Source: Arenicella xantha (GTDB lineage Bacteria > Pseudomonadota > Gammaproteobacteria > Arenicellales > Arenicellaceae). From it: 64,000 bases of DNA. The notes below the pieces were generated by a model. The model did no database searches. It was not told the DNA's origin and was given only the letters and a program-made list of their open reading frames with translations. How positions within the stretch are numbered: the first letter of the stretch is position 1; each line of letters opens with the position of its first letter. Below are positions 17,438 through 43,923 of the stretch, in pieces. Position numbers and translations under genes: made by a program. The stretch lies in the NCBI RefSeq assembly GCF_003315245.1, contig NZ_QNRT01000006.1, positions 62,001 through 126,000 of the forward strand. Direction: 5' to 3'.

Positions 17438-20400
17438 TTATTCGTCTAATAACAACGGCAAGATAGCCGGGAGTGGGAATCGGCGTTGCGGTGTATCCAC
17501 TAGTGCGTCATCCGGAATGCCATCGTTGTCATCATCAGGGTTTGGCACATTCGGGTCGGTCGAAAACTCGAACTCTTCTAAATTAGTAAAGCCATCACCA
17601 TCGGGGTCGGCGTCTCGGTCAAACGAATTACGCGGGTCTAAGCCATTGTCGAGCTCGTATTGATTTGGCATACCATCACCGTCAATATCATTGTCACATG
17701 CGTCGCCTATCCCGTCGCCCTCAAAATCGTCTTGATTCGGGTTAGGCGTGCTTGGGCAGTTGTCAGCATTATCAGCGATGCCATCGGCGTCATCGTCATC
17801 GTCGTCGGTCACCAACAAGTTAGCTGTTACGCTGCCTAAGCCGCTGGCGGCAATGGTGACCAGTTGGTCGGCATCGAGTGTGGTGTTATCGATGCCGGTG
17901 ATATTGAAATTAACAAACGCCGCGCCGACCGGAATCTCAACCGTGGCGGGGATTACTAGTCGAGTCGGGTTATTGCTGCTTAAGCTGACGTTAAGCGCGG
18001 TGTTAGTCGGAGTATTGCGGCTAACAGTCGCCACCGTTATGCCGCTCTCGCTGATTGATGAGCTGTTGAGTGTTAACCCTAAACTGGGCGTTTCGTTGTC
18101 AACGACGGTTACGGTCGCGGAACCAACCACATAGCCAATGGCATTCACCGATATGCTGCTGATGCTATTGCCGTCGGCCAGAGTATCGTCAACCGCAGAA
18201 ATCGCAAACGTGGCAGATGCCTCACCCGCCGGAATCACCACGCTCGTGGGCACCATGGCTGAGCTTAGGTCGCTACTGGCAAGATTAACCTCAAGTGGTC
18301 GGTCAATTAGCACTGAGCGCGTGACGGTGCCTGTACTCGCGCCGCCATTTTCGGGCATGACGTCTGGTGACACTGAAACGCTAAGCGACTGAACCTCAAA
18401 TGCGCCAACGTCGCGCGTGCCGACCGCCGCAAAACCGCGTTGATCTGTGCTGGTGGGGTTGACGCTAGAGCCAGGGTTGATCGCTGGGCTACCACTCATC
18501 AAAGCATGGGTTAACGTGGCGCCGCCATTGTCGGCTAATGGCCCGAGCAGCGGGTCAGCAACGGTCGCGACACTACAGCTTGAGTCATCCACGATGCTGT
18601 CGGTTGCAATCGCTATAGAAACTGTACCGCCACACGCACCACCTGCGGAATTAGCGATGATGCTATTGCTGACACTTATACTTGCGTATTCTCGAGTGTA
18701 CAACCCACCACCAGTATCAGGATAAGCTGAATTACCCGACAATGTGCTATTACCAACGCTGACACTTGCTGAGTCTCGAGCATGCACCCCGCCACCACCA
18801 AACTCTGCCGAATTACCCGACACCGTGCTATTACTGACACTAAGACTAGCGGTGTTTTGAGCGAACAATCCACCACCAAAAGGAGCCCTATTATGCGACA
18901 CCGTGCTATTACTGATACTGAAGCTTGCCGTGCCTCGGGCGTGCAATCCGCCGCCATTGCCAAAAGCAAAATTACCCGACAGCGTGCTATTGCTGATGCT
19001 AACGCTTGCCATACTTGCGGCGTACAACCCGCCGCCATAATATGCCGAATTACCCGACAGCGTGCTATTGCTGATACTGACGCTTGCCGTACCTGTGGCT
19101 TTCAATCCGCCGCCATCCGATGCATCACCACCGCTGATCACCAAATGATCGAGTTGCACGGTGCCGCTAGTAACGCTCATTACCCGTGAGGCTTTGTTGG
19201 CGTCAATCGTGGTGTTAGTGGCGGTGTTAGTGGCGGTGTTAGTGGCGGTGCTAGTACCGGTGTTAGCACCATTCGGGTTAATGCTCACGCTGCGAGTAAT
19301 GGCTAATTCGCCACCCGTCAGCGTGATGGTCTGCCCGGCCACGTTGGGGGCAAATTGAATAATGTGATCATCAGGTTGTGAGCCAATATTAAAACACCCG
19401 TTGTCTAAATCACCCCGCGCGTTGGTGGTGGCGATTGCTTCTCGCAGGGTACACCCAGCGCCGTTGTCGTCGGCGGTGCTGGTGACGGTTAGGTTTAGTT
19501 TGTCATTTGGATCCATAGCACCAAATTCAAACGCGCCAACGTCGCGCGCACCAACCGCCGCAAAACCGCGTTGGTCGGTACTGGTGGCACCCGCTCCGGT
19601 GGCTTGATTAATTGCTGGGCTACCGCTCAGCAAAGCATGGGTTAACGTGGCGCCGCCATTGTCGGCTAATGGCCCAAGCAGTGGGTCAGCAACAACGGTC
19701 GCGCCACTACAGCTTGAGTCATCCACGATGCTGTCGGTTGCAATCGCGATACCTGAACCGGTACACTCATCGCGGCCTGCGGAATTAGCAATGATGCTAT
19801 TGCTGACATTGACGCTTGCATTGTCTAGACTGATCAACCCGCCATGCGTACCAGACGAATTACCCGACAGCGTGCTATTGCCGATACTGACGCTTGCCGT
19901 ACTTGCGGCGTTCAATCCGCCGCCGAAATTAGTAGCGGAATTACCCGACAGCGTGCTATTGATGATACTGACGCTTGCCGAGTCTCCAGCGTACAAGCCG
20001 CCGCCGCGTAAAGGTGCCCAATTAGCCGACAGCGTGCTATTGCTGATACTGACGCTTGACGTACTTGCGGCTTTCAATCCTCCGCCATAACCACCCAGAT
20101 TACCCGACAGCGTGCTATTGCTGATACTGACGCTTGACGTACTTGCGGCGTTCAATCCGCCGCCATTATTTGAGGCATTACCCGACAACGTGCTATTGCT
20201 GATACTGACGCTTGCCGAGTCTCCAGCATACAAGCCACCGCCATTAGATGCGTTACCACCGCTGATCACCAAATGATCGAGTTGCACTGTGCCGCTAGTA
20301 ACGCTCATCACCCGTGAGGCTTTGTTGGCGTCAATCGTGGTGTTAGCGCCATTGGGGTTAATGCTCACGCTACTGGTAATGGCTAATTCGCTGCCCGCCA

Positions 20401-21967
20401 GCGTGATGGTTTGCCCGGCCACGTTGGGCGCAAATTGAATAATATGATCATCGGTTTGTTCGCCAATATTAAAGCACCCGTTGTCTAAGTCACTGAGCGC
20501 GTTGGTGGTGGCGATTGCTTCTCGCAGGGTACACCCAGCGCCGTCGTCGTCTGCGGTGCTGGTGACGGTTAGTCTAAGTCTATCAGGGTTAATACCACCA
20601 AATTCAAACGCGCCAATGTCGCGCGTGCCGACCGCCGCAAAACCGCGTTGATCTGTGTTGGTGGCACCCGCTCCGGTGGCTTGATTAATTGCCGGGCTAC
20701 CGCTCAGCAAGGCATGGGTTAACGTGGCGCCGCCATTGTCGGCTAATGGGCCAAGCAGTGGGTTAGCAAAGGACGCGCCACTACAGCTTGTGTCATCCAC
20801 GATACTGTCGGTGGCAATCGCGATACCTGTACCGTCACACGCATCGCCTGCGGAATTAGCGATGATGCTGTTGCTGATACTGACGCTTGACGTACCTGTT
20901 GCGACCAACCCGCCGCCCACAATTGCTGAATTACCCGACAGCGTGCTATTGCTGATACTGACGCTTGACGAGTGTCGGGCATCCAAGCCCCCGCCAGTAT
21001 CAGCCGAATTACCCGACAGCGTGCTATTGCTGATACTGACGCTGGCCGTGTCTCGGGCGTACAACCCGCCGCCAGAACGAGCCGAATTACCCGACAGCGT
21101 GCTATTGATGATACTGACGCTTGCCGTGTCTTCAGCGTACAACCCGCCGCCAAAAAAATCCGCCGAATTACCCGACAGCGTGCTATTGCTGATACTGACG
21201 CTTGACGAGATTCGGGCATGCAAGCCGCCGCCAGAACCAGCCGAATTACCCGACAGCGTGCTATTGCTGATACTGACGCTTGACGAGTGTCGGGCATCCA
21301 AGCCGCCGCCAGAACGAGCCGAATTACCCGACAGCGTGCTATTGCTGATACTGACGCTTGACGAGTGTCGGGCATCCAAGCCGCCGCCAGAACGAGCCGA
21401 ATTACCCGACAGCGTGCTATTGATGATACTGACGCTTGCCGAGGCTGTGGCGTACAACCCGCCGCCATCAGAATCAGCCGAATTACCCGACAGCGTGCTA
21501 TTGCTGATACTGACGCTGGCCGTATCTCCAGCGTTCAAGCCGCCGCCTCGAGCTGCCCTACCACCGCTAATCACCAAATGATCGAGTTGCACGGTGCCGC
21601 TAGTAACGCTCATCACCCGTGAGGCTTGGTTGGCGTCAATCGTGGTGTTAGCGCCATTGGGGTTAATGCTCACGCTACTGGTAACCGTTAATTCGCTACC
21701 CGCCAGCGTAATGGTTTGCCCGGCCACGTTGGGGGCAAATTGAATAATGTCGTTGCTGCCTAAGGCGTCGTTAGTAACATCAATATTGCAACCGTTGGTT
21801 TGATCAGAGCCACTGTTGACGGTATTAATTGCCTCACGCAAAGTGCAGTTGGTGCCGTCATCAGCGTTTGATGTGACCTCAATGGTGGCGGCCTGCAATG
21901 GCGTGCTCAATGCATGGCCAATCGCCATAGCTAATGCGGTTTTATTAATGCAGTTTAATGGCGGCAT
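17438..21967 (-). CDS. Giant CSLREA / choice-of-anchor Q beta-helix surface protein
   Basis: A 1509-residue secreted protein. A signal peptide (1-26) is followed by three tandem modules, each opening with C-T-L-R-E-A (near residues 41, 479 and 840; the CSLREA motif), continuing as a parallel beta-helix of about 26-residue turns (S-V-S-I-S-N-S-T-L-S-G-N ... G-G-G-L) and closing with a choice-of-anchor Q segment (D-Q-R-G-F-A-A-V-G ... V-G-A-F-E). There are about 9, 5 and 5 main turns. Two Calx-beta-like domains and an Asp-rich thrombospondin type 3-like calcium-binding tail (about 1425-1490) follow. The end, F-P-L-P-A-I-L-P-L-L-L-D-E, could be a sorting tail. Probably a calcium-stabilised adhesin; substrate unknown. 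Confidence 0.85.
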   Translation of the reverse strand: MPPLNCINKTALAMAIGHALSTPLQAATIEVTSNADDGTNCTLREAINTVNSGSDQTNGCNIDVTNDALGSNDIIQFAPNVAGQTITLAGSELTVTSSVSINPNGANTTIDANQASRVMSVTSGTVQLDHLVISGGRAARGGGLNAGDTASVSISNSTLSGNSADSDGGGLYATASASVSIINSTLSGNSARSGGGLDARHSSSVSISNSTLSGNSARSGGGLDARHSSSVSISNSTLSGNSAGSGGGLHARISSSVSISNSTLSGNSADFFGGGLYAEDTASVSIINSTLSGNSARSGGGLYARDTASVSISNSTLSGNSADTGGGLDARHSSSVSISNSTLSGNSAIVGGGLVATGTSSVSISNSIIANSAGDACDGTGIAIATDSIVDDTSCSGASFANPLLGPLADNGGATLTHALLSGSPAINQATGAGATNTDQRGFAAVGTRDIGAFEFGGINPDRLRLTVTSTADDDGAGCTLREAIATTNALSDLDNGCFNIGEQTDDHIIQFAPNVAGQTITLAGSELAITSSVSINPNGANTTIDANKASRVMSVTSGTVQLDHLVISGGNASNGGGLYAGDSASVSISNSTLSGNASNNGGGLNAASTSSVSISNSTLSGNLGGYGGGLKAASTSSVSISNSTLSANWAPLRGGGLYAGDSASVSIINSTLSGNSATNFGGGLNAASTASVSIGNSTLSGNSSGTHGGLISLDNASVNVSNSIIANSAGRDECTGSGIAIATDSIVDDSSCSGATVVADPLLGPLADNGGATLTHALLSGSPAINQATGAGATSTDQRGFAAVGARDVGAFEFGAMDPNDKLNLTVTSTADDNGAGCTLREAIATTNARGDLDNGCFNIGSQPDDHIIQFAPNVAGQTITLTGGELAITRSVSINPNGANTGTSTATNTATNTATNTTIDANKASRVMSVTSGTVQLDHLVISGGDASDGGGLKATGTASVSISNSTLSGNSAYYGGGLYAASMASVSISNSTLSGNFAFGNGGGLHARGTASFSISNSTVSHNRAPFGGGLFAQNTASLSVSNSTVSGNSAEFGGGGVHARDSASVSVGNSTLSGNSAYPDTGGGLYTREYASISVSNSIIANSAGGACGGTVSIAIATDSIVDDSSCSVATVADPLLGPLADNGGATLTHALMSGSPAINPGSSVNPTSTDQRGFAAVGTRDVGAFEVQSLSVSVSPDVMPENGGASTGTVTRSVLIDRPLEVNLASSDLSSAMVPTSVVIPAGEASATFAISAVDDTLADGNSISSISVNAIGYVVGSATVTVVDNETPSLGLTLNSSSISESGITVATVSRNTPTNTALNVSLSSNNPTRLVIPATVEIPVGAAFVNFNITGIDNTTLDADQLVTIAASGLGSVTANLLVTDDDDDDADGIADNADNCPSTPNPNQDDFEGDGIGDACDNDIDGDGMPNQYELDNGLDPRNSFDRDADPDGDGFTNLEEFEFSTDPNVPNPDDDNDGIPDDALVDTPQRRFPLPAILPLLLDE
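20900..21540. repeat. In-gene 78-bp tandem repeats
   Basis: Inside the first beta-helix module the DNA repeats with a 78-bp period, one 26-residue turn per copy. GCCGAATTACCCGACAGCG recurs at 21318 and 21396, and adjacent copies are nearly identical. Such identity favours gain or loss of turns by recombination, which would change the helix length between strains. Confidence 0.85.
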
Positions 21968-28885: not shown

Positions 28886-29857
28886 ATGACGCTCCCTCGT
28901 AATCGATTGGTATCGCTCGCCGATACGCCCTACTACCACTGTGTCTCGCGCTGTGTTCGGCGTGCGTATTTGTGTGGCTTTGACCAGCATACCGCCAAGA
29001 GCTATGCGCACCGGCGTGACTGGCTTGAATACAAACTACTCAACACAGCGGATATTTTCGCCATCAAACTCTGTTCCTATGCGGTGATGAGTAATCACTA
29101 CCACGTGGTGCTGCACGTGCGCTCAGACATTGCCAAGGCCTGGTCAGAGACCGAAGTCGTGCAACGCTGGAGCAAGCTATTTAACGGTACACGGTTCTCC
29201 CAGCGGCTACTTAATCGGGAGCCGTTAACAGAAAGTGAATGGACAGTATTACGCCGAGACATCAAGTGTTGGCGCCAACGCCTGACCGATATATCCTGGT
29301 TTATGCGCATCGTTAACGAATCCATTGCAAGGCAAGCCAACAAAGAAGACCGCTGCACGGGGCGATTCTGGGAAGGCAGATTCAAGAGCCAAGCCTTGTT
29401 AGATGAACGTGCCCTGCTCTCTTGCATGGCGTATGTAGACTTGAATCCGATTCGGGCGCACATGGCCAAAACGCCCGAAACCTCACACTACACATCCATT
29501 CACAACCGCCTAACGTTGATCAAAAAGCGCAAAACTCAGTCGACTGGCTTGGAGCAATTCGTTGGCATTCAAGAAGGTGAGATTGGTATACCATTTCAAC
29601 TAAATGACTATCTAGAGCTAGTCGATTGGTCTGGCAGAATCATTCGAGCTGACAAGCGTGGCCATATCAATCAAGAATTACCGCCAATCCTTTCGCGATT
29701 AAGTCTTAACGCCGATGTTTGGAAAATCTTGACCACCGAGTTCGAAAGCCGCTTCCAATGCTGGGTTGGCAGTGAACATATCGTAAAACGTGTGTGCGAA
29801 GACAACGGCTATCAGCGCAAACCTCCAACCCGCGCACACCGAGCGCTGCTAGGTTAA
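28886..29857 (+). CDS. REP-associated tyrosine transposase (RAYT), Y1/IS200-like
   Basis: A 323-residue HUH-type single-strand transposase. The metal-binding H-x-H lies in V-M-S-N-H-Y-H-V-V near residues 68-76. The segment R-F-W-E-G-R-F-K near 162-169 and Y-V-D-L-N-P-I-R-A near 186-194 are signatures of the RAYT branch (TnpA-REP). These proteins act on REP hairpins and are usually single-copy, domesticated or slowly mobile. A strong GGAG lies before the ATG. REP-like elements near 13.9 and 22.5 kb and a hairpin just downstream may be its substrates. Confidence 0.88.
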   Translation: MTLPRNRLVSLADTPYYHCVSRCVRRAYLCGFDQHTAKSYAHRRDWLEYKLLNTADIFAIKLCSYAVMSNHYHVVLHVRSDIAKAWSETEVVQRWSKLFNGTRFSQRLLNREPLTESEWTVLRRDIKCWRQRLTDISWFMRIVNESIARQANKEDRCTGRFWEGRFKSQALLDERALLSCMAYVDLNPIRAHMAKTPETSHYTSIHNRLTLIKKRKTQSTGLEQFVGIQEGEIGIPFQLNDYLELVDWSGRIIRADKRGHINQELPPILSRLSLNADVWKILTTEFESRFQCWVGSEHIVKRVCEDNGYQRKPPTRAHRALLG

Positions 29858-30050: not shown

Positions 30051-31151
30051 TGTGGCTGTCCATTTCAATTCATCCATGTTCGTGATAGTGATGACGTTCT
30101 ATTAAGTAATACCGTCATAACAAGCAATGTGCGTAATAACAAGGATTTCTCGGCTTTTGGCGGCGGCGGAATACGAATTCTAGATAGTGATAACATTCGT
30201 CTAGAGTCAGTTGTGATTAGCGACAATGAGTCAACGAAGGGCGGAGGCATTGCTATACAGTCTTCAGACAACACCGTTATTGTTGATTCACAGATTATTG
30301 GCAATCACGTTAGCGAACCAGATACGCCCGATTCCGCGGGCATCCCCGATGGAGGCGGTATTAGGGCCACTAGTGTAAGTTTTCTAACCCTCCAAAACAC
30401 CGTTGTATCGAGCAATACTGCCGGCTTTCGAGGCGGCGGTATTGCTTTTTTATCCTCAAGCGATTTGTTAATTGACAGCAGCACCATATCAAAAAATCAA
30501 GCCAGTCGTGGCGGCGGCATATATTTAGGTGCACGTTTTAATACAACTACGAAGTCAGAAAATGTTCAAATTGTTAACTCGACAATTTCACGTAACGTGG
30601 TGAAACCGTTCACGTTTGAATTTCAGTTTTATGGTAGTTACAACGCTCAAGGCGGCGGCATTAGCGCTAAATATATCGACGGCGTTGAGATTATTTCATC
30701 AACCATTAATGGCAACCAAGCATTAGGAGCTAATGCTCAAAGCGGTGGCCTTCATACAGAATCAACAAGTTCGAATATTTCTCTCACCAATAGCATCATT
30801 GCCAACTCCCGTGGCCAAGACTGTGCTGACGGAGCAACCAGCGTAGATACAGTCAGCGTCATTGAAGACGGCTCATGCGGAGCAAGCCGTTCTGGCAACC
30901 CACGTATTTTGGCCTTAACTGCTAATGGCGGCCCCACATTCACTCATGCTCTGGCTGAAAACAGCATCGCACGCAACAGCTCAGTTGGAACTTGCACTGT
31001 GACTGATCAACGCGGCAAAAAGCGCGATATCAGCGATGGTGCTTGCGACGTAGGCGCGTTTGAGTTTATCGAAGGCTTGGATGACGTAGACGACACAAGC
31101 TTCTTTGTGGTGCCTCTTAAGAGCGGCAAATCGGTGATTTTTGGGCTTTAA
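30051..31151 (+). pseudogene. Beta-helix surface protein, 5'-truncated
   Basis: A parallel beta-helix protein lacking its normal start. The repeat text is already present upstream of the only available GTG (30129): H-V-R-D-S-D-D-V-L-L-S-N-T-V-I-T-S-N runs in frame from about 30075, and the frame is closed by TAG at 30048. No signal peptide or CSLREA motif is present, unlike the 1509-residue relative. The helix turns (G-G-G-I motifs) and the choice-of-anchor Q end (D-Q-R-G-K ... V-G-A-F-E-F) are intact. The break lies within 200 bases of the RAYT gene. The tail F-F-V-V-P-L-K-S-G-K-S-V-I-F-G-L resembles that of the 42.4-kb protein. Confidence 0.6.
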
Positions 31152-31512: not shown

Positions 31513-31599
31513 ATGATTAATAAATTTTTACTTCAACCAAGGCTGACTATCATCGTTAGCTCTGCGACAAGTGGGTGCGATCTTTATGAGTTACGTTAG
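31513..31599 (+). CDS. Possible 28-residue leader ORF before the FHA gene
   Basis: An ATG at 31513 opens 28 codons (M-I-N-K-F-L-L-Q-P-R...) that stop at TAG 31597-31599, overlapping the FHA gene start at 31586 by 14 bases. Overlap of this kind can couple translation. The upstream sequence GGGACAGATAAA gives only a weak ribosome site. No homologue recognised, and it may be non-coding. Confidence 0.25.
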   Translation: MINKFLLQPRLTIIVSSATSGCDLYELR

Positions 31600-32296
31600 A
31601 ATTTATTGTGGCAATGATTTGAGAAAGCAATTTGAGCTAGGTGAAAACGGCGCGACAATTGGTCGCACTGACGATAATGTAATTGTGCTCGCCGATGAGG
31701 GAATCTCTAGGCAGCATGCCGCGATCGAGCATCAAAACGGTGAGTACTTCATTGTTGACCTTGGTAGCAGTAATGGCGTTTTCCTAAATAATGAGAAAGT
31801 TGAAAAGGCGAAGCTCAAGTATTGGGATGAGATACAGATTCATAATTTCGTCATCAAGTTTATGGCGAAGCCTGTGCTCGCAGGAACCAAGGGAGACATA
31901 GATGAGCCCACCGCAGATCTTGAGTCAGATAAAACCAAGTTTTTTAATGTCACCGATGAAAAGCAACTTGATGAATTGCGAAATAAAACCAAGGAGTGCT
32001 TTCTCACGTACAAAGGCCCATCGGGGAAGCTGCGAAAGCTGATTATTAAAAAGCCGCGCATCATCATTGGCAAATCAAATCAAGCTGATATTAAAATTAC
32101 GGGATGGTTCGCGCCGTCAATTGCGGCAACGATTGAACGCCACGGTAGCTCATATGAGTTGGTCCCTACTGAGCGAGGCAAGGTCATTTTTCAGAATCAA
32201 CGAGTCTCAAAATCAGTAAAGTTGATAGATGATAGCGGATTTATAGTTCGAGATATTGAGCTCAAATTTTTTAATCGACTCACAAAAACGAGTTGA
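31586..32296 (+). CDS. Double FHA-domain protein
   Basis: A 236-residue cytosolic phosphothreonine-reader protein. The first FHA domain (about residues 3-90) has the full set: T-I-G-R, then I-S-R-Q-H-A and L-G-S-S-N-G-V-F. The second (about 140-225) is degenerate: I-I-G-K replaces G-R, the S-x-x-H motif is missing (A-P-S-I-A-A), and the N-G pair is absent, so it probably does not bind phosphopeptides. I prefer the ATG at 31586 over the GTG at 31571. It is the first gene of an FHA-PP2C pair and probably reads phosphates set by the kinase encoded at 34547-36673. Confidence 0.83.
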   Translation: MSYVRIYCGNDLRKQFELGENGATIGRTDDNVIVLADEGISRQHAAIEHQNGEYFIVDLGSSNGVFLNNEKVEKAKLKYWDEIQIHNFVIKFMAKPVLAGTKGDIDEPTADLESDKTKFFNVTDEKQLDELRNKTKECFLTYKGPSGKLRKLIIKKPRIIIGKSNQADIKITGWFAPSIAATIERHGSSYELVPTERGKVIFQNQRVSKSVKLIDDSGFIVRDIELKFFNRLTKTS

Positions 32297-32304
32297 TCAT
32301 TGTT

Positions 32305-33093
32305 ATGCCTTGGATCACCTTAGCCGGTTGCAACATCGGCGACCGAGAAGAACAACAAGATCGATATTTGATTGAACATAGCAATGACGACCAAAGCCAT
32401 TTACTGGTTGTTGCGGATGGTGCTGGCGGACACAAAACGGGTGGCTTAGCGGCACAAGCCGCCATAGATTGTGTTCGCGAAAATCTGGCTAATTTGTGGT
32501 CTAACGATGCGCCGGAAATGTTTCTCAATAGGCTGATCAGTGACTGTAATAAGCGTGTGCTTGCGGTAGGCGGTGGTGAGCTTGCTTGTACAACACTGGT
32601 ATTGGCTCTAATTAGGGGCGATGAAGTTTTTTGGGCTCATGTCGGCGATAGCCGTTTTTACTTAATCAGAGATCGGCATGTGATCGTTAGAACAAACGAT
32701 CATTCAGTGATAGAGCTCCAACGTCGACAGGCAGCGCAGAACTCTAGAGTCAGCACCACGCAGTCTAATGAACTCTACATGTGCCTTGGTGCGCTAGCTA
32801 AGACCGCCCCTGATGTATCAAGTAGCCTAGTTCGCGACGGGGATACCTTGCTGCTATGCAGTGACGGACTCTGGGGCCAGATCGACATGAAGCCCATAGT
32901 AGCCGACCTTAGCGAGCGCCCTTTGACCCTTGATCGGCTAAACAACTGGATAACAAAAGCCAAAGTTGCAAAACACAATAACAGCGACAACATCACTCTG
33001 CTTGCCGCCAGGCTAAAGAGTAAGCCTGGTTTTTTCCCTAATCCATCAAAGGCGATTATTAATTTCTTTAAAAATGACAAGTCCATCAACTAA
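32305..33093 (+). CDS. PP2C-type Ser/Thr protein phosphatase
   Basis: A 262-residue metal-dependent phosphatase. The catalytic motifs are all present in order: D-G-A-G-G-H near residue 36, V-G-D-S-R near 112, C-S-D-G-L-W-G near 188 and S-D-N-I-T-L-L near 227. No membrane helix or sensor domain is fused. A TTG at 32293 overlaps the FHA stop in a TTGA arrangement; I give the ATG four codons on. Either way the pair is coupled. It probably reverses phosphorylation by the nearby Ser/Thr kinase. Confidence 0.88.
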   Translation: MPWITLAGCNIGDREEQQDRYLIEHSNDDQSHLLVVADGAGGHKTGGLAAQAAIDCVRENLANLWSNDAPEMFLNRLISDCNKRVLAVGGGELACTTLVLALIRGDEVFWAHVGDSRFYLIRDRHVIVRTNDHSVIELQRRQAAQNSRVSTTQSNELYMCLGALAKTAPDVSSSLVRDGDTLLLCSDGLWGQIDMKPIVADLSERPLTLDRLNNWITKAKVAKHNNSDNITLLAARLKSKPGFFPNPSKAIINFFKNDKSIN

Positions 33094-33175
33094 CTTGTTA
33101 GATGCATTTTGCCTCTCCTAACCGTGAATATTCTTACTCAAAGAAGCAAACCATTTAGAGCCGGCCGAGAACACT

Positions 33176-34537
33176 ATGAACAAAACCTATCACTCTACAA
33201 CGGATACCTTAATGCTATTTAAGTGTATTAGATCACGCACTTCGATTTTGACATTTTTGGCGTTTCTTTCAGAGCCTGTATGGGCCGAGAAGCTGGATTT
33301 ACGCTTCGAAGTAAAAGCGAATTATCGATACAGCCAACAAGCCGATTTTCCTAGCCAGCCGTTCCCCTTTCCGGCAACCGCATTAACCGAAAGCGACAGT
33401 AATGCGTTTATCGAAACGGTTGACGAAGGCAGCCATGGTGAGGTTTCTTTGGTCAGCATGGCCGGCAAGTGGCAATTCGCTGACTCTTGGCAGTTACAAT
33501 TTAAAGTCGATGCAATTGACCTATACGATCGTAACCCGACCTCGACCGATAAAAAAATCGATATTGATTCCTTTGTTCTGCGCTACGGTAACACATTTGG
33601 CGCAACCACAATTCCATCTGAAAATAGCTTCTATGCGCAGTTAGGAAAATTTAAAAAATTTGAGCAGCAACGGGAGCGACGCACAGAAAGTTACGGTGTT
33701 GTTTCAACCGCGTTCAACCGTTTTGAAGACAGCGGGATCGAAACTGGGTTTGATTTGTCTGCTGGCTTCTATGGTCGACTGAGCTATACAACAGGGAACC
33801 CAGTTTTCTTGAGAGACGTTAATGCTCTAGCTGGAGACAATGGCACCGAAGATCTTAGAGTGCCGTCAAACGTTAACTCTGGCTCCAATCTAAACAATGG
33901 CATTGTCACGCTGTACGATGCAGAAGTCGAGGATTTTGACCTGTCCACTTCCCCGGAACTCGGTGTAGGCCTCGGCTATCGTTGGAATTCCGCCAAGCAA
34001 AATCAAAAACTGGATGTTCTGGCTTACCATTATCAAAGAGACCTCTCAGACACCAGAGAGATCAATGGGACATTTTTAGGCGGCGATCTTGATCTGTTTG
34101 ACCTGAGCGAGTTTCCTGGCGCTGAGGGAGTTCGATTACCTTTTACGGGTAAGGAAAAAACCGAAAGTGGTTTGAGCGCGTGGTATTACGCCGGTGATTT
34201 CTCTGTTTTTTCTCAGTACGTTAAACAAGAAGTGGCAAATCTAGACCGCGACGGCTTTGAAATTGAGCTCAGTTATGTGTTCAATACGCCAATCACAATT
34301 ACTCCGGTAGTCCGTTACTCGGAGTTAAATAATAATTTTGTTAGTGACCCAACGTTTTTTACGCCGAGTCTCCAGTGGGACTGGCGAAAAATTGACTACG
34401 GCATTAATTTTGATTTTACAGACAATGTCCGGCTAATTGTTGAATATGCCGACAATGAAGTGCTAAGGGCTGGCCGCTGGGAAAGTCAAAACGAGTTACT
34501 ACTAACGCTCCGCTGGCAGGCCAGTTATAAGCGCTAG
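33176..34537 (+). CDS. Outer-membrane beta-barrel (porin-like) protein
   Basis: A 453-residue exported protein. A signal segment ends near residue 37 (P-V-W-A-E). The remainder lacks long hydrophobic helices and alternates polar and aromatic residues, with many G-Y and R-Y pairs, and finishes with beta strands (E-L-L-L-T-L-R-W-Q-A), as in alginate-export-type or other 16-18-strand barrels. The ligand is unknown. It starts 82 bases after the PP2C gene in the same direction and converges on the kinase gene, leaving nine bases between stops. Confidence 0.7.
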   Translation: MNKTYHSTTDTLMLFKCIRSRTSILTFLAFLSEPVWAEKLDLRFEVKANYRYSQQADFPSQPFPFPATALTESDSNAFIETVDEGSHGEVSLVSMAGKWQFADSWQLQFKVDAIDLYDRNPTSTDKKIDIDSFVLRYGNTFGATTIPSENSFYAQLGKFKKFEQQRERRTESYGVVSTAFNRFEDSGIETGFDLSAGFYGRLSYTTGNPVFLRDVNALAGDNGTEDLRVPSNVNSGSNLNNGIVTLYDAEVEDFDLSTSPELGVGLGYRWNSAKQNQKLDVLAYHYQRDLSDTREINGTFLGGDLDLFDLSEFPGAEGVRLPFTGKEKTESGLSAWYYAGDFSVFSQYVKQEVANLDRDGFEIELSYVFNTPITITPVVRYSELNNNFVSDPTFFTPSLQWDWRKIDYGINFDFTDNVRLIVEYADNEVLRAGRWESQNELLLTLRWQASYKR

Positions 34538-34546
34538 CGGCTTACA

Positions 34547-36673
34547 TTACACGTTACTTAATTGTTCCAACATTTCCCTAACGGTCTGAAATCTGTCGAC
34601 TGGGTCTTTTTCGGTTGCTTTACGAATGACCTGGTCCAGCGGCCCGGTGATAACACCGTCCACACCGTTAATTTCTGGCAACTCTTGGTGCACATGCATC
34701 TCCGCGAGTTTCATATAGTCCGCATGGCTGAACGGCGGTGAGCCCGTTAATAAGGTATACAAGATAATGCCAATCGAGTAAATGTCGGTGCGCTGATCCA
34801 GCTCTTCGTTGAGAAACTGTTCCGGAGCCATATAACGCGGAGTGCCCATTAATTTTGTGTTGTCTTTTGATGAGTTTAATTGCTCTTGATTTGCGACACT
34901 TCTGGCAAGACCAAAATCCATTATTTTTAGGATACCCTGCTGGTTAACCATCATATTTCCGGGCTTGAGATCAAGATGAATCACGCCTTCTTCATGGGCC
35001 GCATTCATGGCTGAGCAAATTTGCCGACCCATTAAAAGCGCAATATATAGATCCTGAGCGCCTCTTCTTTTTAACAGCACATCAAGGTCATAACCCGCTA
35101 CGTACTCCATACTGATATAGGTATAGGCGTCCCAATTGCCCATATCAAACGTTCTTAGAATATTGCGATGCGTGATACGTCGCGCCAGACGAATCTCTTC
35201 TTTGATGCTGATAGCATTACTCTCAGCAAACAGATCTCGAGGTAATAATTTGAGAGCGGTCTTCTCATCCAACTCGCGATCTTCAACCAAAAACACCAAG
35301 CCCATAGCCCCTTGCCCAATGAGCTCTAGTACGTCGTAACGGTCGCCAATTCTCGTTCCAGTCGTAATCATTGACCGAGCTGCCTTAGCCGCCACATTGC
35401 CTTCGTCTAAGACAAGAGCACCAGAGCTGTGAGGTAGGTGTTGTTCGGGCGCGCCTCCCCCCACGATTAAGTCAGCCTCTAAGGCACTGTTCGACAGTGC
35501 CTTATCAACGTTTAATTCATTAGAAATTTGAGCCAAGTAGTTTTCCAACTCAGCCTTCTCCTTTAGGGTATTGCCCATCTCTACGACTGCCCGGTAGAGC
35601 ATCCCAATCTCGTCATTGGATTTTGGCGCGGCACTCTTGTCTGGGAAGTTACCATCACGAATACCACCGGTGACCGATACCAGCTCGATGATGGGTCGAC
35701 TAATTCGTATTGATACAAACCCAGCCAGCATAAACGCGACAACCAGACAGATCCCACCAATAACCAGCACTGTATTCTGGATGCTGGTAAACGGTGCTAA
35801 TAGATCTGCACTGGAACGTAAGATCATCACAAAACCCAATGGGTCGCTGCCGTCATTGCCAACGCGACTAGCAACCGCGAAATACTCTTGATTATTTAGC
35901 GTTGTATGAAAATTTTGCACCGCTGATTCACCATCAAACATCGGCTGCCAGCTTGAAGTAGACTGTTCAAAGTATTCACTTAGCGAGCGTTTAAGCTCGT
36001 GGTCGGTAACGTAGATGTTATTAACCCCATTAACCTGTCGACTCTGGTCGCGAGTAAAGCTAAAAAAAGCAATATCGCTGAATGTCAAAGACACAATCTC
36101 ATTCGCCATATCGCTACTAAATTCATAGGCTAGTGCTACCGTTCCCCGAACCACGTCAGTCGCGACATTATCAAATATCGGCTCAGTGACAATCTGCATT
36201 AAGCGACCTTGGCTCAGAAAATACCCCTGCCCCGACTTACCGGCGAGCGCATCATCGAAAAAATGTGTTTTGCCTGCCATGTTTTGGCCAATCGCTTGTG
36301 GTCGGTCTGAACGCGCTAAGATATTGCCGGAGCCGTCGGTGAAAAATAGAATGTCAAAGTCGAGTTGATTCTTAAACTCCTGGCTCTGATCCTGGAGTGT
36401 TAATACTTCGCTTTCATAGACCAATGGCAATATGCGGCTGTCTCTCGCTACGCTTCTGGCGACCTCTCTGATGGAATTGAAACGGCTTTCGATTTTGGTG
36501 TCTAAAACGGTACTGGACTGCCGCAATGATTGGCCTATGGTTTGGGCGGAGACCAGTTTCGCCTGTACGCCAATTTGCCAGAAGGTGGTAAGAATAAGCG
36601 CGCCGAACCCGACCAAAATAAGAAAGAACAGTTTTTCGCGAATACCGAATCGAATATTAGGTTTTGACATCAA
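34547..36673 (-). CDS. Transmembrane receptor Ser/Thr kinase (sensor-HAMP-kinase)
   Basis: A 708-residue inner-membrane kinase. A first helix (about 13-33) is followed by a periplasmic sensor region of about 270 residues that looks like a double-Cache fold, then a second helix (about 300-325), a HAMP domain (about 326-380) and a short coiled region. The C-terminal kinase (about 440-705) has a glycine loop G-Q-G-A-M-G-L-V-F, a lysine in A-L-K-L-L, H-L-D-L-K-P-G-N with catalytic D568, and D-F-G-L-A-R. Cache-HAMP input is common in chemoreceptors and histidine kinases but uncommon for a Hanks-type kinase. Its start overlaps the lipoprotein stop (ATGA). Confidence 0.88.
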   Translation of the reverse strand: MMSKPNIRFGIREKLFFLILVGFGALILTTFWQIGVQAKLVSAQTIGQSLRQSSTVLDTKIESRFNSIREVARSVARDSRILPLVYESEVLTLQDQSQEFKNQLDFDILFFTDGSGNILARSDRPQAIGQNMAGKTHFFDDALAGKSGQGYFLSQGRLMQIVTEPIFDNVATDVVRGTVALAYEFSSDMANEIVSLTFSDIAFFSFTRDQSRQVNGVNNIYVTDHELKRSLSEYFEQSTSSWQPMFDGESAVQNFHTTLNNQEYFAVASRVGNDGSDPLGFVMILRSSADLLAPFTSIQNTVLVIGGICLVVAFMLAGFVSIRISRPIIELVSVTGGIRDGNFPDKSAAPKSNDEIGMLYRAVVEMGNTLKEKAELENYLAQISNELNVDKALSNSALEADLIVGGGAPEQHLPHSSGALVLDEGNVAAKAARSMITTGTRIGDRYDVLELIGQGAMGLVFLVEDRELDEKTALKLLPRDLFAESNAISIKEEIRLARRITHRNILRTFDMGNWDAYTYISMEYVAGYDLDVLLKRRGAQDLYIALLMGRQICSAMNAAHEEGVIHLDLKPGNMMVNQQGILKIMDFGLARSVANQEQLNSSKDNTKLMGTPRYMAPEQFLNEELDQRTDIYSIGIILYTLLTGSPPFSHADYMKLAEMHVHQELPEINGVDGVITGPLDQVIRKATEKDPVDRFQTVREMLEQLSNV

Positions 36674-37776
36674 TAGAACTCGTCTTCAAACAGTGCAGAA
36701 TTTTTAGAATAGTCTCCACCAAACTTATTTTTGTGCGACTCGGTCTTAAACGCCACGGTATCAATGCGGTCGATCAATTTAACCGTCTCGTTGGCTTTTA
36801 CCTCAACTGTTTGCTTTGCCTCACCGCGAATATTCCAAATGGTGACTTCATAGGTACCAGGGCGTACATCGTCGATTTTATAGCCGCCTTGGTCATCCGC
36901 TTTTACACTCAGTCCTTGTTTGCCGACAGCGACAAACATCGCCATGTCTGCGTGGATATTGCAATAGACTTTTACTATTCCGGGCTCCCTTAAGGTAACC
37001 GCCCGCTTTAAACCCGAGCCATAAGTACCGAGGTCAAACGCATTACTGCCTGATGACGAAAAAACGTTATGTTGGATATTGTCTTTATTCGCAAACACCA
37101 CTTGATCGCCAGCGCTAATGGTTGAGTAGCGTGGTTTATATTCCTTGTCTTGCATGTCAATGACATGCACTTTTGACGGGCGATTTTGCACGTTGCTCAT
37201 GACTGTTTTTGGCGTCAATGTTATCAATGTGCCAGTCGCAGGCAGCGGTTGCCCGTTCTCACCAAGCAGAATAACTTTGCCAGCGATTGCGCCCTGCTCG
37301 ATACCTACCTCTTTATTTTCTGTTTCCGTGGAGATTTTAGGTACCACATTGTTTGGCGATTTGGGTTCGTGTGGTTTAGCGGGTTTCTCTTTCTTGACTA
37401 ACGTTTCTGCGTCACTTTCTTCAGGTGATAAAACCGTGCTCGATTCAGTAGCTTGAATCGCGGGTTTGGTCTCTAGACTTGAAACAAGGCCCGATTTCGT
37501 CTTGCCGGTTGATACTGGCGATTCGCCTATCGGATCAACCAGTGAATCGTTATCAGAAGTTGCGAGAACTGCCTGATCATCCATCGGGAGCTGCTCATTT
37601 GCAGCCACAAGCGGGCCAACTTTCGCCGAACTATCTGAGAACAGGATTCGATCTTGCCCTAGCATATTGCTTGTTGCACATGAGGTCAGCAGTGACAATA
37701 GTGGTAGCACCATGAACATACGCATAACAAAATTAGATTGCCCACGCACTCGGTTTAAATAATTGTTAAACAGCAT
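36670..37776 (-). CDS. Lipoprotein with a type 1 copper (cupredoxin) domain
   Basis: A 368-residue envelope lipoprotein. The lipobox L-L-T-S-C puts the acylated cysteine at 33 from the ATG at 37776; a TTG at 37800 is possible upstream. A long low-complexity linker (about 40-170) is followed by a cupredoxin-like domain with ligands H236, C272, H275 and M278 or M280 (Q-H-N-V, then Y-C-N-I-H-A-D-M-A-M), and a carboxypeptidase-regulatory-like beta domain at the end (G-G-Y-K-I-D-D-V-R-P-G-T-Y). The kinase gene overlaps its stop, so the lipoprotein may present a copper or redox cue to the kinase's periplasmic domain. Function otherwise unknown. Confidence 0.78.
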   Translation of the reverse strand: MLFNNYLNRVRGQSNFVMRMFMVLPLLSLLTSCATSNMLGQDRILFSDSSAKVGPLVAANEQLPMDDQAVLATSDNDSLVDPIGESPVSTGKTKSGLVSSLETKPAIQATESSTVLSPEESDAETLVKKEKPAKPHEPKSPNNVVPKISTETENKEVGIEQGAIAGKVILLGENGQPLPATGTLITLTPKTVMSNVQNRPSKVHVIDMQDKEYKPRYSTISAGDQVVFANKDNIQHNVFSSSGSNAFDLGTYGSGLKRAVTLREPGIVKVYCNIHADMAMFVAVGKQGLSVKADDQGGYKIDDVRPGTYEVTIWNIRGEAKQTVEVKANETVKLIDRIDTVAFKTESHKNKFGGDYSKNSALFEDEFY

Positions 37777-38572
37777 TTTGACTGTTACTCCGTATTTCAA
37801 AGCGACATTGATTCAGGATTTAGTGTCCGACAATTACTTAGTGCCTACTTAGGCCGACTTGGTTCAATCAAAATGAAATAAAATTGAGTTCTTACTGTAT
37901 TCCATGCTTATTTAGGTAAACGCACGAAGCAAATACAAAAGAAAGAGCGAAAAGAAAGGATGCGTGGCCACTGGTTTGGCGCAGCCTTACCTTGAGTGGA
38001 CAAGCCTATTTAGATATGAAAGCAGTTCATTGAAGCTTAATTTATCAAATAAAAACTGTTGTCGTTGATATCAATACTCTCTCAGAGGGTTTATACAATA
38101 AATCAATGACTACTCGAGGATAGCTGTGAGTATTCGCGATCGTAAGCAAGAACCGAAAGACCCCGCTATTGCTTGTGCGAAGTTTCGTGCTGAAAGGATA
38201 TCCTTATTTCAAGTCAGGCGTTCTAATGTTGGGTGTCCCTTCCAATTTCGTCCAAGGTATATCTCAATTGCTGTGTAAGCATCCTGATCTAATTGATCCA
38301 TAGTAGAATTCTCCGTTTTTGGGGACAGCGACTAGCGTAGTCGAAGGTTGCTTCTCCGCTTGAAGCTAGATCCACACTAAGCAATATGTTTATTGCCGCA
38401 AAAATAAGTGCGTTTTGCCGCGTCTCAATGAATAATTGAGTGGTGTTTTTCTATCAAACTAAATGAATGAACGCGTAACAATGGAAGTAGCTTGTGTAGG
38501 TATGGTCTGGGCCACACGTGATGGCCCAAGCCATTTAAGTTTCAAACATTGCTCGCGTTCACAAGTGCGTTT
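37777..38572. other. Long intergenic region with one candidate small ORF
   Basis: Nearly 800 bases with low coding signal. It contains the promoter region of the lipoprotein-kinase transcript at its left end and a candidate 30-codon ORF at 38209-38301 (minus). No repeat, RNA gene or transposase remnant was recognised. Confidence 0.35.
38209..38301 (-). CDS. Candidate 30-residue small ORF
   Basis: An ATG at 38301 follows ACGGAGAATTCTACT, a good ribosome site, and opens M-D-Q-L-D-Q-D-A-Y-T-A-I-E-I-Y-L before a TGA at 38209. The composition (acidic start, aromatic/hydrophobic middle) is protein-like but no family is recognised. In-frame coding-like text continues past the stop (N-K-D-I-L-S-A-R-N-F-A-Q-A-I), so it may be the intact start of a broken gene. 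Confidence 0.35.
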   Translation of the reverse strand: MDQLDQDAYTAIEIYLGRNWKGHPTLERLT

Positions 38573-42423: not shown

Positions 42424-43923
42424 CTAGAGGCAAAAGGAAATAACATTTGAGCTTTTACTTTTTAACACAATACACAAGTCTTCGACTTCGAGAGTTTCAA
42501 TGGCTAAGTCATAGTGATTTCGCGCATTACTATAGCCAGCGATACGTAGAAAATAGTCCCCGTCAGCTGGTGCGGTAAATGTAATGAACTCGTTGTCAGT
42601 AGTGCTATCTGAACTGGCTATTTGCACCTGTGAAGCATCAAGCAAATAGGCATCAAGATCGCCAGCATCGTGATTAAACAACACCTCGATGTTAACCTGC
42701 TGCTGACTCCTCAATGGTAGCCGAAAATAATCTACGTCTTGGCTATGAACCTCGTGGTCACCAATATTAAGTTCAGTGAAAGATTCATTCGCTGTGAGTT
42801 CATACGCCGAAAGCAAATCATTATTTGGTTCAAGTACGTCGGCTTTCAAATATTCAAAAGCACCGACATCGGGAGCGTCGAGACGCCGTGAAACGCCTCG
42901 CTGGTCAATAGCATCGATAAAGTTTAATGTACCAGCATCTATTGCTGGGCTCGAAATAGAGAGAGGCACAGTCTCGGTAGGACCGCCAAAAAACCCTAGA
43001 CCAACTAACAAAGGGTCAGATCCAATTTGATTACTATTAGTATTATCAACCAAATCACAGGCACCAAACCCCGTCGATTTAATCACGTTATTGCCTTGGT
43101 CTATTACTTGATCTGAACCGTCAACGACACAGTCATTGGACGCGTTATCAGCGAAGACATTATTGCTTAACGCCACCTTTACATAACCAGGACTAGAACC
43201 GTCTGCGCTGATGCCACCACCAAAACTGGCTGAATTATTATAAAAAGTAGAGCGAGCAATATAGGAAGTCGTGCCTGAATTTCCGCGGATAAATATACCT
43301 CCGCCACGAGTCGCCGAGGAGCCTGCACTATTGTCAACGAAGGTGCTAAATTCTACCGACAAAAAACCATCAGTTGACTTAATCGCGCCACCACCTTGCC
43401 CACCGACGGATGAGTTAGACTTAAACGTAGAGGTGAAAATTCGCAAATCTCCACCGTCATTCCGAATCGCACCGCCATCACCTGCTGTCGCCGAATTGCT
43501 TTCAAACTGGGAGCTGACAACCCCCAGCGTTGCGCCCGCACTTAGCAAAATGGCACCACCTGACGTAGCTCTACCATTTTTAAGAAAGAGGTTCTCAATG
43601 CGAACATTCGAGTTTCCGCTAATAGTCAATATTCTATGGCTAGACGCTCCATCTAACACTTTGGATGTATTCAAAATATCGAAACCCGACACTACAAGAC
43701 GTGGGCTGCTGGACCCATTGTTGATAGCTGTCAACGCACTCGCTAAAGTGATGTTGTCAATCAAATTGATGGTATGAATGCCTGACACTTCATCGTTAAA
43801 ATCGACAATTGCAGCATTGAGTTCAGCCTGGCTACTCACATCCACCGTGAATGCAAATGCCCATTGAGAAGCGCATGCGCAAGCTAACAACGATACCAAC
43901 CTAAACGTCTTCATACTTATCAT
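42424..43923 (-). CDS. Beta-helix (choice-of-anchor Q) protein with PPC domain
   Basis: A 499-residue secreted protein. A signal peptide ends near residue 25. Residues 40-345 form a parallel beta-helix with G-G-A-I and G-G-G-I turns and close with V-G-A-F-E-Y. Residues about 355-470 form a pre-peptidase C-terminal domain (E-P-N-N-D ... V-D-Y-F-R-L ... G-D-L-D-A-Y-L). The last residues, C-I-V-L-K-S-K-S-S-N-V-I-S-F-C-L, resemble the end of the truncated beta-helix at 30051. Surface localisation is likely; the ligand is unknown. It is convergent with the VTT-domain gene. Confidence 0.78.
   Translation of the reverse strand: MISMKTFRLVSLLACACASQWAFAFTVDVSSQAELNAAIVDFNDEVSGIHTINLIDNITLASALTAINNGSSSPRLVVSGFDILNTSKVLDGASSHRILTISGNSNVRIENLFLKNGRATSGGAILLSAGATLGVVSSQFESNSATAGDGGAIRNDGGDLRIFTSTFKSNSSVGGQGGGAIKSTDGFLSVEFSTFVDNSAGSSATRGGGIFIRGNSGTTSYIARSTFYNNSASFGGGISADGSSPGYVKVALSNNVFADNASNDCVVDGSDQVIDQGNNVIKSTGFGACDLVDNTNSNQIGSDPLLVGLGFFGGPTETVPLSISSPAIDAGTLNFIDAIDQRGVSRRLDAPDVGAFEYLKADVLEPNNDLLSAYELTANESFTELNIGDHEVHSQDVDYFRLPLRSQQQVNIEVLFNHDAGDLDAYLLDASQVQIASSDSTTDNEFITFTAPADGDYFLRIAGYSNARNHYDLAIETLEVEDLCIVLKSKSSNVISFCL

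Follow-up and report, generated by a model that had tools for sequence, protein, structure and literature searches.

To our knowledge, few signals have been assigned to bacterial receptor Ser/Thr kinases other than those of the PASTA group. The YfiBNR system is made up of an outer-membrane lipoprotein, a periplasmic regulator and an inner-membrane GGDEF receptor. Control of a membrane signalling enzyme by an extracytoplasmic protein has precedents in HmsC acting on HmsD and in the arginine-binding protein ArtI, the partner of the dCache receptor STM1987 (PMC8846402). The T6SS threonine phosphorylation pathway comprises the TagQ lipoprotein together with PpkA, PppA and Fha1 (PMC5995506, PMC10482370).

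Here we describe a locus in a 64-kb stretch of DNA (the window) from the marine bacterium Arenicella xantha, whose genome is 4.4 Mb in size and 99% complete. Five genes occupy 31.6-37.8 kb of the window: those encoding an FHA protein, a PP2C phosphatase and an outer-membrane barrel lie on the plus strand, and converge with the genes for a kinase and a cupredoxin lipoprotein on the minus strand (Table 1). A preliminary description of this DNA had treated them as a phospho-signalling island. Our results show that they do not stand alone but are one output variant of a module that consists of a cupredoxin, a barrel and a dCache-HAMP receptor and mostly has a GGDEF-EAL output. The kinase is a rare variant of this widespread, apparently unnamed sensor module, which usually makes or breaks cyclic-di-GMP.

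Table 1. Genes and domains of the Arenicella xantha locus (positions in the window).
Feature	Position	Strand	Remarks
FHA reader, 236 aa	31586..32296	+	FHA 1 intact, FHA 2 degenerate
PP2C-type Ser/Thr phosphatase (Stp1-like)	32305..33093	+	Metal and phosphate motifs conserved in 5 orthologues
Outer-membrane porin-like beta-barrel, 453 aa	33176..34537	+	16 predicted strands
Transmembrane receptor Ser/Thr kinase	34547..36673	-	Conserved ATG 36670, TTG 36673
Double Cache sensor of kinase (predicted), periplasmic, residues ~36-300	35774..36568	-	
HAMP domain of kinase, residues 320-371	35561..35716	-	
Hanks-type kinase domain, residues 446-696	34586..35338	-	GQGAMG, K475, E493, HLDLKPGN, DFG, APE
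Cupredoxin lipoprotein	36670..37800	-	Lipobox, long linker, cupredoxin domain, C-terminal tail
Cupredoxin domain	36928..37188	-	Ligands H244, C280, H283, M286; C-x2-H-x2-M spacing

Gene and domain content of the locus

The five genes named in the preliminary description are all present where it placed them, with the FHA, PP2C, kinase, HAMP and cupredoxin domains scoring above their profile cut-offs and the barrel recognized by modelling. The kinase domain matched the Pfam Pkinase profile at 172 bits (cut-off 31.7) and carries the intact motifs previously read from it, namely the GQGAMG G-loop, H-L-D and D-F-G. An HLD catalytic loop (residues 566-568, window 34970-34978) occurs only in the five Arenicella kinases; nine other related kinases have HRD. 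Profile searches found no PASTA repeats in the window kinase, whose match to the PASTA kinase model NF033483 (263 bits against a cut-off of 450) covers the kinase domain only. A HAMP domain follows the second transmembrane helix (27.4 bits, Pfam cut-off 25). The periplasmic sensor scored 36.6 bits against Pfam dCache_1, under the cut-off of 45, and its relatives passed the cut-off of dCache_3. An AlphaFold2 model of the sensor (pLDDT 75) matched solved dCache/Cache sensor domains in Foldseek at E-values of about 1e-7 to 1e-8, among them those of Tlp3, KinD and DctB, and its structural neighbours include amino-acid and carboxylate receptors. By prediction, the fold is a double Cache; the modelling thus upheld the proposal of a Cache-like periplasmic sensor joined to HAMP.

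The cupredoxin domain matched Copper-bind (PF00127) at 26.0 bits against a cut-off of 21.2, which by profile indicates a plastocyanin/azurin-type fold. The H-C-H-M set predicted to form type 1 copper ligands is present in the window protein, as had been noted, and is invariant in 75 of 75 paired cupredoxins. The lipobox reads L-T-S-C41 with Ala at +2, and an Ala after the lipobox Cys generally favours the outer membrane. A linker of ~120 residues, rich in Ser, Glu, Lys and Pro, precedes the cupredoxin domain, and the protein ends in a tail of the form HKNKFGG...FEDEFY. Most kinase-type cupredoxins carry a long region at the N terminus, and a lipobox Cys is seen in several, although the long linker is missing from some of them (e.g. 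L060, L062); most other cupredoxins are ~220 aa long and have no lipobox Cys. The C-terminal H-x-N-K tail was found in all 14 kinase-type cupredoxins and is absent from the cyclase and histidine kinase types; in most Arenicella-like kinase-type proteins it ends in E-F-Y. This tail is a candidate docking element, and part of it may be constrained by the ribosome-binding site of the kinase gene.

An overlap of four bases had been reported between the lipoprotein and kinase genes. The overlap itself is real, but it measures four bases only if the kinase starts at TTG; with the conserved ATG it is a single base (TGATG in the window, TAATG in four congeners), and this arrangement is present in all five Arenicella copies. 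The convergent kinase and barrel genes have stop codons 9 nt apart. The PP2C gene probably starts at ATG 32305, 8 nt past the FHA stop, with TTG 32293 as the alternative. Elsewhere in the window, a Y1/REP-type transposase-like gene lies near the module (28886-29857; a weak Pfam match, below cut-off). The window also encodes a set of beta-helix-type repeat proteins (17438-21967, 30129-31151 and 42424-43923), one large and repeat-rich and two smaller, of which the copy at 30129-31151 was checked with Pfam.

The FHA protein scored 79 bits against Pfam FHA (cut-off 20.7). In its first domain the phosphothreonine-binding G-R, S-R-x-H and N-G motifs are intact in five orthologues, whereas they are lost in the second, to which it is joined by a conserved Thr-containing linker; the alignment agrees with the reading of one intact and one degenerate domain. 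The phosphatase matched PP2C_2 (62 bits, cut-off 24) and reached 131 bits against the Stp1-type model NF033484, under the equivalog cut-off of 230. Its PP2C motifs, described earlier as complete, are kept among the orthologues.

A lipoprotein, a membrane kinase, a PP2C phosphatase and an FHA protein also make up the T6SS threonine-phosphorylation pathway, of which the locus could be a copy with a PpkA-like kinase, a PppA-like phosphatase and an Fha reader. We consider this highly improbable, since VipA/TssB (PF05591) was not found in the window's genome (G000) or in three of the four other Arenicella genomes carrying the unit, and the FHA protein fails the TagH/Fha1 model TIGR03354 at 53 bits against a cut-off of 120. 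Divergent T6SS aside, the lack of VipA led us to reject this pathway for the A. xantha genome.

Conservation in Arenicella and distribution of the kinase variant

Of 18 Arenicella genomes, 5 carry the complete five-gene set with relative order and orientation unchanged. Aligned identities of the four congener copies to the window are 76-79% for the kinase, 65-67% for the barrel, 61-65% for the FHA protein, 52-54% for the cupredoxin and 51-52% for the PP2C phosphatase. Three flanking contexts can be distinguished (the window, G001 with G008, and G010 with G017); those flanking genes of the window that were tested were not matched next to any of the four congener copies, and a single unrelated gene is inserted between barrel and kinase in both G010 and G017. 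Because the genes have been kept together while their flanks changed, they are not chance neighbours, and the neighbourhood comparison bears out the view that they form a unit. Kinase modules occur in 5 and cyclase modules in 3 of the 18 genomes, none of which has both; mutual exclusion of the two within the genus is not significant (P 0.35).

Genes for FHA and PP2C adjoin the kinase in five of five Arenicella copies. None was seen beside the kinase in nine non-Arenicella loci, for some of which the fetched stretches are short, and the FHA and PP2C homologues at other sites of those genomes are distant. The expectation that the five families co-occur in other genomes therefore holds for the set within Arenicella, but not for FHA and PP2C beyond it. 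We accordingly rejected these two as core parts and regard them as lineage-restricted additions, which makes the reader and eraser steps lineage-specific at best.

In total, we found 14 loci in which a cupredoxin is paired with a Ser/Thr kinase. Besides the five in Arenicella, there are two in one other gammaproteobacterial family group (G225 and G340, the latter a Methylococcales MAG), two in further groups of the same class (G227, G472), one each in Cellvibrionaceae 1162T.S.0a.05, Alteromonadaceae NORP12 and an unplaced gammaproteobacterial MAG, and two in MAGs labelled Verrucomicrobia; binning errors may lie behind such MAG labels. In a quick tree with SH-aLRT supports and without bootstrap, the sensors of all 14 kinases form one clade (99) that is sister to a cyclase clade (81). 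In the two kinases that branch earliest (L061, L062), HAMP and kinase domains are separated by ~200 additional residues, and in L062 (7814-10417, residues ~390-600) part of this stretch resembles a degenerate class III cyclase, with an E-value of 1.4e-6 against a cyclase profile in a small set and of 0.026, below cut-off, against Pfam Guanylate_cyc; reading the sequences by eye, its second metal-binding Asp appears to be lost. Since the sister clade is a cyclase and an early-branching kinase keeps this cyclase-like stretch, the sequences suggest that a cyclase receptor acquired a kinase by fusion and that its cyclase then decayed. In L059 (10757-11473) and L162 (6441-7157), an opposite-strand gene matching Csm2 and Cas10 palm domains lies between cupredoxin and kinase, where components of a type III CRISPR system would not be expected.

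The window barrel matched no Pfam family. Its model has 16 long strands at modest confidence (pLDDT 62) and resembles the general porins PorB, OmpC and OprP in Foldseek (E 1e-12 to 1e-10), which supports the outer-membrane barrel proposed earlier. A homologous barrel is found in 8 of the 14 kinase loci, Porin_5 barrels in two more and an Alginate_exp-type barrel upstream in L164; in some loci (e.g. L060, L166) none was recognised within the fetched stretch. It had been proposed that the module controls the porin or the envelope; a porin so controlled would be a target and no part of the sensor. Such control would fit the position of the barrel gene, which continues the row of FHA and PP2C genes and converges with the kinase gene. 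We nevertheless find it improbable, as barrels of several families accompany the modules irrespective of output type, and the Cellvibrionaceae barrel gene comes after those for cupredoxin and kinase on the same strand, as expected for part of a unit. Because barrels of differing families go with the variants, an input or structural role is more likely for the porin.

The wider cupredoxin and dCache-HAMP module

Searching with the cupredoxin profile, we recovered homologues from 54 of 369 genomes across the class and from 58 of 399 across the phylum, in samples that are unevenly distributed. We chose 72 cupredoxin loci without reference to the receptor and scored the next gene on the same strand. 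A signalling enzyme came next in 54 of these independently sampled loci (46 GGDEF/EAL, six class III cyclase and two histidine kinase), with a median gap of 1.5 nt between cupredoxin and receptor; in several of the remaining loci the next gene is barrel-sized, and a GGDEF/EAL gene or a long gene of receptor size lies upstream. The output labels of single partners come from BLAST seeds, with Pfam tallies as a check: among 44 receptor partners, dCache_3 was matched in 34, HAMP in 34, GGDEF and EAL in 33 and cyclase in five. An outer-membrane barrel is usually near the pair. Distances between cupredoxins correlate with those between sensors (Mantel r 0.82 overall, 0.76 within GGDEF-EAL and 0.92 within kinases; 0/500 permutations, species phylogeny ignored), and barrel type follows both trees, so that cupredoxin, receptor and barrel type are inherited together.

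The cupredoxin might nonetheless serve electron transfer or copper handling, with the receptor sensing a small ligand such as an amino acid, organic acid or amine without contact between the two. Linkage would then arise from genes that answer the same condition; direct binding of small ligands is usual for dCache domains, amino-acid and carboxylate receptors are among the structural neighbours of the sensor, and the neighbours of weaker cupredoxin homologues include cytochrome-like and radical-SAM genes (ORFs judged by reading). However, the linkage persists over four output types at near-zero spacing, and cupredoxin-sensor co-variation exceeds what a shared condition needs, which makes this account unlikely.

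On annotated plasmids, the homologous cupredoxins are named 'methylamine utilization protein' or 'carboxypeptidase regulatory-like domain-containing protein', and the gene that follows is named 'EAL domain-containing protein'. In two of the three annotated plasmids examined, this pair is accompanied by adjoining genes for DUF3034 and a group 1 truncated haemoglobin, which recur with the cupredoxin and GGDEF-EAL receptor elsewhere (e.g. L084, L107, L116, L142, L191), DUF3034 in 37 loci and the globin in 36, while most of the rest have other barrel families. We found no description in the open-access literature of this four-gene cluster, nor of a cupredoxin with a c-di-GMP enzyme or a Ser/Thr kinase. 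The presence of the globin in the cluster at 36 loci of the wider module would suit a version of our preferred explanation in which the cupredoxin is a redox-active adaptor and the cue is nitric oxide, oxygen or another redox signal rather than copper. Such a cue is possible, though we lean against it: the globin was not found beside kinase or cyclase variants, and the cue may therefore have changed with the output.

A putative trans-envelope receptor and its relatives

We favour, with a probability of roughly 60%, a trans-envelope receptor unit in which porin, cupredoxin and receptor act together, the signal passes through threonine phosphorylation, and the mark is read by the FHA protein and reset by PP2C. 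A dedicated porin-like barrel would sit in the outer membrane, the cupredoxin lipoprotein would reach through the periplasm on its long flexible linker, and the dCache-HAMP receptor would span the inner membrane. The state of the cupredoxin (its copper content, redox state or ligand occupancy) may then determine a putative contact with the dCache sensor, from which HAMP would relay the signal to the cytoplasmic kinase. The kinase would phosphorylate its own Thr residues, those of the FHA protein and/or those of further targets, and the FHA protein and PP2C would respectively read and erase the mark. Control in this direction is what the arrangement suggests to us: barrel, cupredoxin and receptor stay together whichever output is present, and the most likely role of barrel and cupredoxin is therefore on the input side. 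We give even odds to the broader proposal of an unnamed three-layer receptor class whose outputs have been exchanged among c-di-GMP turnover, class III cyclase, histidine kinase and Ser/Thr kinase, with the kinase branch arising by cyclase-kinase fusion and cyclase decay and Arenicella adding reader and phosphatase.

Compared with the T6SS pathway, the Arenicella unit likewise has a lipoprotein input, a transmembrane Ser/Thr kinase, a PP2C eraser and an FHA reader, but it has a cupredoxin instead of TagQ/TagR and a dCache-HAMP sensor. With PknB/Stk1 PASTA kinases accompanied by Stp1 and FHA proteins it shares the Hanks-type kinase domain, the Stp1-like phosphatase and the FHA reader, differing in having dCache and HAMP in place of PASTA repeats. 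YfiBNR and HmsCDE resemble it in envelope sensing and in the control of a membrane signalling enzyme by an extracytoplasmic protein. In the Arenicella unit this partner would be a cupredoxin and not YfiR (profile searches found no YfiR-family match among the module proteins), the output is a Ser/Thr kinase and the set includes a porin-like barrel.

In the GGDEF-EAL cluster of Comamonas, Caballeronia and Novosphingobium plasmids, a dCache-HAMP receptor gene comes immediately after the gene for a homologous cupredoxin that shares all four ligands, and an outer-membrane barrel-type gene is usually present. This cluster differs from the Arenicella unit in its output, c-di-GMP turnover as opposed to threonine phosphorylation, in being without FHA, PP2C and the long lipoprotein linker, and in often having a globin. 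Many genes annotated as 'methylamine utilization protein' thereby gain a likely true role as the periplasmic half of a receptor, and the signal of the module could be studied in many bacteria. As the kinase shares its sensor family and extracytoplasmic partner with many c-di-GMP enzymes, the cue could be sought in the most easily grown organism and the result then transferred.
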